A stretch of DNA of 10,976 nucleotides from positions 1 to 10,976 of the forward strand of contig JAJXTX010000071.1 in assembly GCA_021783385.1 (NCBI GenBank), read 5' to 3'. Made by a program: the position numbers and the translations under genes. The stretch's first letter is position 1. Each line of letters opens with the position of its first letter. This document shows positions 3,813 to 4,924 of this stretch, one piece after another. This DNA is from Pseudomonadota bacterium. GTDB taxonomy: Bacteria > Pseudomonadota > Gammaproteobacteria > Xanthomonadales > Rhodanobacteraceae. The notes beneath the pieces are model-generated. The model was not told the origin of the DNA. It was given only the letters and a program-made list of their open reading frames with translations, and did no database searches.

Positions 3813-4214
3813 ATGCGTCGTCTTCCCTCTGTGCTGCTGCTCGTCGCGCTGCTGCTGGCAGGGGGGCTGTGGCAACGGCATGCCGCGACCCCGCTCGGCG
3901 GTCCTGCCGGCGCCGCCACCGCCAACATCGCGCCCGGCCGGCCGTCGTTGCTGCCACCGGAGGCGGCAGCCACGCTGGCGGCGATCGCCCGCAGCGGTCC
4001 GTTCGCGTACCGGCAGGACGGCGTGGTGATCGGCAACCACGAGCACCGGCTGCCGCCGCAGCCGCGCGGCTACTACCGCGAGTACACGGTGCCGACGCCC
4101 GGCGCCACCAGCCGCGGAGCGCGCCGCATCATCACCGGTGGCACGCCGCCGGCGGTCTATGACTACACCGACGATCACTACCGCAGCTTCCGTCACTTCG
4201 GGGGGCGCCAGTGA
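3813..4214 (+). CDS. Exported guanyl-specific ribonuclease, barnase/RNase N1-T1 family
   Basis: 133 residues. Residues 4-19 are a hydrophobic leader (LPSVLLLVALLLAGGL) after two arginines, acting as signal peptide or membrane anchor; I see no clear AxA site and no lipobox. Residues about 45-130 are a microbial ribonuclease domain (PF00545). The pattern GPF-YRQDG, YYREYTVPTPG, RGARRI, DHYRSF matches barnase. Glu90 (YRE) corresponds to barnase Glu73, the general base. Arg101 and Arg105 correspond to Arg83 and Arg87, and His122 (DHY) corresponds to His102, the general acid. All catalytic positions are therefore present and the enzyme should cleave single-stranded RNA after G. The start ATG at 3813 places the hydrophobic leader right at the N-terminus; the SD is weak. 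The TGA overlaps the GTG start of the barstar gene by 4 bp (GTGA), the usual arrangement of a ribonuclease with its inhibitor. Confidence 0.9.
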   Translation: MRRLPSVLLLVALLLAGGLWQRHAATPLGGPAGAATANIAPGRPSLLPPEAAATLAAIARSGPFAYRQDGVVIGNHEHRLPPQPRGYYREYTVPTPGATSRGARRIITGGTPPAVYDYTDDHYRSFRHFGGRQ

Positions 4215-4924
4215 ATACGCGCGCCTTCGATCCGGAGCTGACCCGGCCGGCCCAGAACGGCGTCTACTTCGTCGGCGGCGGCAGCGACCTTGAACGACTG
4301 GCGCGCACCGCCGCGTGCGACGAGCTGCAGGTATGCCGGATCGACCTGCACGGCTGCCGCGACCGCCACGCGCTGCTGCAGCGGCTGGCACTGGCGCTCG
4401 CCCTGCCCGCCAGCTTCGGCCACAACTGGGATGCGCTGGCCGACTGCCTGCGCGACCTCGGCTGGCTGCCGGCGTGGGGCTACGTGCTGCTGTTCGAGCA
4501 CGCCGACGGCTTGCGCCATGCGGCCCCCGCGGATTTCGAGATCCTGCTGGGCATCCTCGATGACGCCGCCACCTTTGCCGGCGAGCAGGACCAACCCTGG
4601 TTCGCGTTTCTGGCACTGCCGGACGAGCTCAGCGGCCGATCGCCCGCGGCCGCGCCTGAAGCGTGCCATCCTGAATCTTTCTCTGAAGGCCGGACCACCA
4701 TGCAAAACATCGAATTCGAACTGCAGGGCGACTACGTCGAACTGAACATGCTGCTCAAGCTGACCGGCCTGTGCGACAGCGGTGGCGCCGGCAAGGCGAT
4801 CGTGGCCAGCGGCGCGGTAGCGGTGGACGGCAGCATGGAGCTGCGCAAGACCTGCAAGATCCGCGCGGGTCAGCAGGTGGTCATCGGCGACGTGGCGATC
4901 CACGTATTGGCAGACGCGCGCTGA
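4211..4924 (+). CDS. Barstar-type ribonuclease inhibitor fused in frame to a YbcJ-type S4 RNA-binding domain
   Basis: 237 residues from a GTG start that overlaps the ribonuclease stop, implying translational coupling; a G-run at 4200-4205 can serve as SD. Residues about 40-138 are a barstar domain (PF01337). The segment LALPASFGHNWDALADCL (64-80) aligns with the barnase-binding helix of barstar. Asp74 and Asp78 match barstar Asp35 and Asp39, while the equivalent of Trp38 is Ala. Residues 164-237 match the small S4-like protein YbcJ of E. coli along its whole length (VELNMLLKLTGL, AKAIV-like helix, VDG, RKTCKI, AGQ). No stop separates the two parts. The linker (about 140-163) is Pro/Ala/Ser-rich. 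From 4655 to 4687 it loses the GC preference at third positions (CCT, GAA, CAT, TCT), which resembles former intergenic sequence. Expected to be cytoplasmic: the barstar part neutralises the RNase before export. Whether the full fusion is made, or the S4 part starts separately at 4700, is open. Confidence 0.82.
   Translation: MNTRAFDPELTRPAQNGVYFVGGGSDLERLARTAACDELQVCRIDLHGCRDRHALLQRLALALALPASFGHNWDALADCLRDLGWLPAWGYVLLFEHADGLRHAAPADFEILLGILDDAATFAGEQDQPWFAFLALPDELSGRSPAAAPEACHPESFSEGRTTMQNIEFELQGDYVELNMLLKLTGLCDSGGAGKAIVASGAVAVDGSMELRKTCKIRAGQQVVIGDVAIHVLADAR
4700..4924 (+). CDS. ybcJ: Possible separately translated YbcJ-like S4-domain RNA-binding protein (internal start)
   Basis: An ATG at 4700, inside the barstar frame, is preceded by GAAGG at 4685-4689 with 10 bases between. 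It would give a 74-residue protein of almost exactly the size of E. coli YbcJ (about 70 residues). It would begin MQNIEFELQGDYVEL, where stand-alone YbcJ relatives begin. The S4 features are visible: the helix LNMLLKLTGL, then SGGAGKAIV, VAVDGSMELRKTCKI and a terminal beta strand. YbcJ-like proteins are thought to bind structured RNA; their precise role is not settled. This entry is an alternative product of the same frame as the fusion, so the two may coexist. The SD and the conserved family N-terminus favour real internal initiation. Confidence 0.55.
   Translation: MQNIEFELQGDYVELNMLLKLTGLCDSGGAGKAIVASGAVAVDGSMELRKTCKIRAGQQVVIGDVAIHVLADAR

Follow-up and report, generated by a model that had tools for sequence, protein, structure and literature searches.

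What is to be made of a reading frame that runs without interruption from a barstar, an inhibitor of RNases, into an S4 domain of the YbcJ type? Such a frame of 237 codons lies on the forward strand at positions 4211-4924 of the window, by which we mean the whole stretch of 10,976 nucleotides analyzed here, and it raises the questions of whether the fusion is genuine, how it came about and what it might do. The fusion connects an RNase and its immunity protein with a translation-associated protein whose function is poorly known. Since fusions that recur classically hint that their parts are functionally linked, the locus offers a way into what YbcJ-type proteins do and into the places in the cell where RNase inhibitors act. 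Our analysis indicates that barstar-S4 is a new architecture made of known parts, and that it is real, inherited and recurrent; a search of the open-licence PMC literature found no record of it.

One frame with two domains and an RNase gene upstream

That a barstar and a complete S4 domain share a single frame had been claimed in a sequence-only reading of this DNA, and the Pfam profiles bear this out (residues 40-133 and 169-232; Table 1): the barstar profile PF01337 reaches 97 bits and the S4_2 profile PF13275 72.2 bits, above their gathering scores of 23.4 and 24.6, respectively. We file the S4 half as S4_2, YbcJ-type, and not as YbcJ itself because it scores 53.7 bits against NCBIfam YbcJ (NF008561), under the equivalog cut-off of 95. 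The same half aligns over residues 173-233 to PDB 1p9k, whose record reads 'orf, hypothetical protein' and which we take to be E. coli YbcJ. In the barstar half, alignment to solved barstars sets D74 and D78 against D35 and D39 of barstar, which means that the DxxxD barnase-contact motif is present. Residues 1-147 also gave structural matches to ORC AAA+ proteins at an rmsd of 3.5-4.0 Å, a resemblance that we took for a generic alpha/beta likeness.

Table 1. Features of the barstar-S4_2 locus, in window coordinates
Feature	Position	Strand	Details or basis
Guanyl-specific RNase, PF00545, RNase Sa/barnase type, 133 aa	3813..4214	+	Pfam 65.3 bits
GTGA overlap of RNase stop and barstar start codon, 4 bases	4211..4214	+	Sequence
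Barstar-S4_2 fusion ORF	4211..4924	+	237 aa, 25.5 kDa
Barstar domain, residues 40-133	4328..4609	+	Pfam profile match
Linker, residues 141-162, predicted disordered	4631..4696	+	pLDDT under 50; junction alignment
Out-of-frame TGA aligned with the barstar stop of unfused relatives	4657..4659	+	Presumed relic
RBS-like stretch GAAGGCCGGACCACC, directly 5' of the S4 ATG	4685..4699	+	Retained; anti-SD duplex energy
Former free-standing S4 (YbcJ-type) gene	4700..4924	+	ATG at 4700, 74 aa
S4_2 domain, complete, residues 169-232	4715-4906	+	Pfam profile match

The sequence-only reading had also placed an RNase of the barstar-inhibited kind beside the fusion, and the PF00545 gene that overlaps the barstar start is indeed one. 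Its nearest solved relatives by alignment are RNase Sa chains, it possesses the residues aligned to the catalytic Glu, two Arg and His of RNase Sa, and its hydrophobic N-terminus suggests that the enzyme is secreted. An RNase gene followed by an overlapping inhibitor gene is the layout of the barnase-barstar pairs (Imm-Barstar; PF00545 + PF01337). The passages of PMC3482391 dealing with these systems describe the simple pairs as widely distributed and the barstar-type immunity proteins as specific to barnase-like toxins, with a DxxxD motif to which D74 and D78 of the window correspond. The window differs from such pairs in that its inhibitor bears an extra C-terminal S4 domain and in that about 38 residues (4211-4327), predicted to form a strand and a helix, stand ahead of the Pfam barstar domain, an extension found in fused and unfused long-form barstars alike. 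As for the other half, the window shares a complete and likewise single-copy domain with the YbcJ / S4_2 proteins (PF13275; E. coli YbcJ, B. subtilis YaaA), which, in contrast, are normally small and free-standing.

The fusion is genuine and inherited

The window genome is a fragmented metagenome assembly (377 contigs, 79.8% complete), and a base error that deleted a stop codon would produce just such a frame. An artefact of this kind is nonetheless practically inconceivable and can be excluded, since the identical uninterrupted fusion is carried by the closest genome relative, G015 (87% identical), and by the protein clusters P0001 (97%, 28 members) and P0002 (91%, 11 members), with a linker of equal length in all of them. 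A stop between the two parts in all close relatives, coupled to a sequencing indel in the window, had been named beforehand as the mark of an error; the nearest relatives are fused. Also arguing against an artefact are the low dN/dS values between the window and G015, 0.16 for the barstar (residues 13-137) and 0.20 for S4, which indicate that both domains are constrained. The linker (residues 138-163) gives 0.22, and the first 12 residues give 1.49, a value that derives from five differences only. Of the 16 differences within the linker, 8.5 are synonymous, with synonymous sites accounting for a quarter of it (one-sided binomial p 0.008-0.03), and its former-spacer part (residues ~149-163) is near neutral as judged by eye from the codon list. 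Barstar-S4 is thus a genuine, inherited gene fusion.

A row of neighboring genes and the origin of the window fusion

All 45 Rhodanobacter genomes of the genus set match the query, and in 40 of them barstar and S4 lie side by side: fused in two (the window and G015) and separate in 38, where a stop and a gap of 20-76 bases (median 39) precede the S4 ATG. Four genomes (G010, G019, G064 and G067) keep S4 in the absence of any PF00545 and PF01337 match, G010 having a remnant match from residue 98 onward with an internal stop, and in G022 S4 and the RNase-barstar pair sit on different contigs. One of the 38 separate loci, in G063, has an interrupted barstar; this locus (L060) presents an RNase beside a barstar split in two partial matches in different frames, which could stem from a sequencing error or from real breakage of the inhibitor gene.

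The gene row RNase-barstar-S4 recurs in family f1, the loci from genera other than Rhodanobacter being those with the best matches and hence a subset. Because the three genomes fetched from the next family, f2 (G036, G047, G056), have a barstar with no S4 near it, we read the adjoining of the RNase-barstar pair to S4 as a trait of f1, albeit one with exceptions: a further five barstar loci of f1 (L107, L108, L111, L112, L114) have no S4 within about 2 kb. Family-wide, RNase genes occur in 124 and barstars in 135 of 233 genomes; the RNase is present without a barstar match in G063 alone, whose barstar is interrupted, and the converse holds for 12 genomes, of which one has its locus at a contig edge and another retains an RNase piece. 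S4_2 is single copy in 18/18 genomes scanned.

Two origins had been envisaged from the sequence, namely an inhibitor that gained an RNA-binding module or the loss of a stop between two neighbors, and it is the latter that is favored, because unfused relatives have the same two genes adjacent with a stop. The loss does not, however, look like a simple stop substitution. In the junction alignment the window's CCTGAAGCGTGCCATCC stands opposite CCTGAAAGCGTGTCACCC or near variants in several unfused relatives, whose barstar stop is the TGA in CCTGAAAGCGTGTCACCC; the window has it at 4657-4659 in a different phase, and what was spacer downstream of it now codes for linker, the second half of the linker being derived from the old spacer between the genes. 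This relic suggests that the window fusion probably began with a frameshift in the variable tail of the barstar, caused by a small indel.

In several relatives S4 is in frame with the barstar and a single stop separates the two, as programmed readthrough of that stop would demand. We rejected this explanation because the phase of S4 relative to the barstar frame is spread as by chance, with 12 of the 38 separate Rhodanobacter loci in frame and 15 and 11 out of frame in the two other phases, and 11 in frame among 32 separate loci of other genera. The spacer motif AAGCGTGTCACCCT was considered as a dispersed repeat and likewise abandoned: six genomes hold only 0-4 matches each at one mismatch or fewer, so that it is merely shared spacer sequence.

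The two genes have been joined repeatedly

Uninterrupted fusions are also found in G170 (genus g34), in 4/4 g38 genomes (G209-G212) and in G222 (g41), the other g41 members fetched having separate genes. A search for co-linear barstar plus S4 hits in bacterial proteomes, advised by the sequence-only reading, was run and listed 30 fused proteins. One protein, P0127 (BTJ49_00075, 'hypothetical protein' at source), shares its junction with G209, and on that basis g38 is taken as Oleiagrimonas. A 354-aa barstar-S4 fusion, P0131, continues at its C-terminus for about 120 more residues that have no Pfam match at E 1e-3.

Over the 110 rows of the main tree, which uses both domains, excludes the linker and leaves out L060 (G063), parsimony requires seven state changes, of which the starred branches of a quick tree force four, and six on each of two reduced sets; these changes do not separate gain from loss. 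The AU test (50-row set) rejects all fusions as one clade (p = 2e-5), and with it a single origin of all of them. The same test rejects the joining of the window clade with g41 (p = 0.002), of the window clade with g34 (p = 1e-5) and of g41 with g34 (p = 2e-6). Given these pairwise rejections (p <= 0.002), the safe statement is that, not counting reversals, the fusion arose at least three times. Some groupings are not rejected: g34, g38 and the P0124-type as one origin (p = 0.14), g38 with the P0124-type (p = 0.375), and a single Rhodanobacter origin comprising the window clade, P0003-P0009 and P0010 (p about 0.5), though the linkers within this last grouping differ. The repeated joining hints that the fusion is useful or at least harmless.

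The architecture of the Oleiagrimonas fusion is that of the window, with an RNase gene upstream, as in the window, in 2/4 g38 genomes (G209 and G210). It differs from the window fusion in having lost the S4 start codon and in its unrelated linker, and its origin is separate (g34, g38 and the P0124-type together with the window clade being rejected at p = 1e-4), perhaps common with that of g34 and the P0124-type.

Contact residues of long-form barstars follow the presence of the RNase

Both contact Asp residues occur in all 83 barstars that have an RNase close by (six of them fused), a count that leaves out the interrupted barstar of G063 and rests on labels assigned by hand from the locus survey, two such RNases lying 280-334 bases upstream. 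By contrast, both Asp are present in 0/5 same-form barstars of RNase-less genomes (G211 and G212, fused; G161, G165 and G166, unfused) and in 0/7 further long-form copies away from any RNase, that is, in 0/12 in total. Short or divergent barstars lacking a nearby RNase, which probably serve other partners, retain both Asp in 8/12 cases, and for this reason the rule is restricted to the long form, defined by a family-profile score of 73 bits or more (the others score 50 or less, or do not match), a split that was set post hoc. The wider set comprises 19 barstars, a further five from genomes devoid of PF00545 and 14 second copies, whose residues were read by eye. Across the whole comparison the rows share ancestry, and the independent events behind them are few. 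Kept apart were 32 rows with no assignable RNase status (30 database proteins, L014 at a contig edge, and L112), of which 31 have both Asp and one, P0122, is short of one. G070 and G089, whose RNase is only partial or frame-broken, have kept both Asp; at the G089 locus (L120) the RNase profile match is split over two frames with an intact barstar alongside, a broken RNase with its inhibitor still present.

Since both Asp are found in 83/83 barstars next to an RNase as against 0/12 long-form ones away from it, a fused barstar with an RNase alongside seems to be kept as an inhibitor; this rule supports inhibitor function generally, rather than the fusion. In G211 and G212, the two fused g38 genomes without an RNase, the barstar reaches 39 and 51 bits, compared with 98 and 101 for G209 and G210, and the contact residues are changed, from which it seems that after loss of the RNase the contact residues decay while the fused barstar domain stays. 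These two loci (L122 and L123), with no PF00545 in the genome and a barstar score about halved, constitute a natural decay series. Ten unfused long-form barstars without an adjacent RNase (L116-L118 from G161, G166 and G165; L129-L131; L135-L137; L140) have lost DxxxD in 10/10 cases and may have another role or be decaying.

A probable fusion product and a possible free S4 protein

An open frame need not imply a fused product if translation in effect restarts at ATG 4700 and the linker is rarely passed. The window does retain this ATG and the CGGA-type sequence 5' of it, the anti-SD pairing ahead of S4 being -5.0 kcal/mol in the window, -3.5 in G015 and -1.7 to -4.0 in the 38 separate Rhodanobacter loci, and a Met is kept at the S4 start position in 10/10 Rhodanobacter-like fused clusters (P0001-P0010). 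Since its own ATG and ribosome-binding site persist, the latter stronger than average, S4 may be produced as a free protein too in the window lineage, and perhaps mostly in that form. An internal start would nevertheless add a product without removing the fusion, ribosomes coming from the barstar start encounter no stop before 4922, and the internal ATG is gone in the fused g34 and g38 genomes; we therefore regard an open frame devoid of fused product as very unlikely.

In the five fused g34 and g38 genomes the S4 ATG is replaced by GCG, CAT, ACG, GCA and GAA. From 30 bases before to 12 after the old S4 start, G210 has no in-frame ATG, GTG or TTG, and the other four offer a GTG or, in G209, an ATG 27 bases upstream, without a ribosome-binding site. 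Because S4_2 is single copy in these lineages and its own ATG is lost, S4 function there very probably comes from the fusion.

What the fusion might do

The reading that we prefer, and consider reasonably probable, is that of a two-headed cytoplasmic protein, an RNase inhibitor and an RNA- or ribosome-binding S4 domain separated by some 22 disordered residues, born by a tail frameshift from neighboring genes. The N-terminal barstar would block the RNase encoded just upstream until the latter exits the cell, and the C-terminal YbcJ-type S4 would bind structured RNA or the large ribosomal subunit, the disordered residues joining the two. A frameshift in the poorly conserved barstar tail would have bypassed the old stop and entered the frame of the S4 gene, and in the window lineage the retained ATG 4700 would give rise to free S4 protein as well. 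We infer that the fusion is translated, that it inhibits the upstream RNase and that its S4 half acts as YbcJ does.

As to where such an inhibitor might act, the parts of PMC2672614 concerned with E. coli YbcJ report that it copurifies with RluB, SrmB, DeaD, RNase E and RNase R and that its deletion lowers the rate of protein synthesis and its fidelity, and a mention in PMC11066096 cites it as associated with the 50S subunit. These accounts, by analogy, render tethering to ribosomal RNA more plausible, and with it an inhibitor tethered to ribosomes, although part of the S4 may be untethered in the window lineage given that the internal start is retained. One may go further and suppose that the fusion was selected for placing the inhibitor on ribosomes or the RNA-decay machinery, where unexported RNase harms most, a supposition in keeping with the YbcJ reports and with at least three origins, reversals left aside. 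Recurrence alone is no proof of benefit, however, because neighbors 20-76 bases apart fuse by a short mutational step; free S4 is probably still produced in the window lineage, and 38 of the 40 Rhodanobacter genomes with the adjacent pair have it unfused. We consider selection for such a tether rather unlikely.

Conversely, an expendable immunity gene may have joined a core gene by chance and at no cost, after which loss of the barstar would harm S4. The four of 45 Rhodanobacter genomes that miss both RNase and barstar yet retain S4, as well as the two of four fused g38 genomes that lack the RNase yet keep a barstar domain with changed contact residues, are compatible with this view; against it, three RNase-less same-form barstars in genus g30 persist unfused, as do divergent-form ones, and lock-in alone leaves the recurrence unexplained. 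We treat such a neutral course as tentative and somewhat unlikely. Our two-headed reading can also be extended to the conjecture, which we find doubtful, that one family has on several occasions fused a secreted RNase's immunity protein to an S4 protein associated with the ribosome, obtaining at once a tethered inhibitor that guards rRNA or nascent-chain sites and an immunity gene that is hard to lose. For the question of the tether, the family provides a natural series: loci with separate genes, fused with an internal start, fused without that start, and fused without an RNase.
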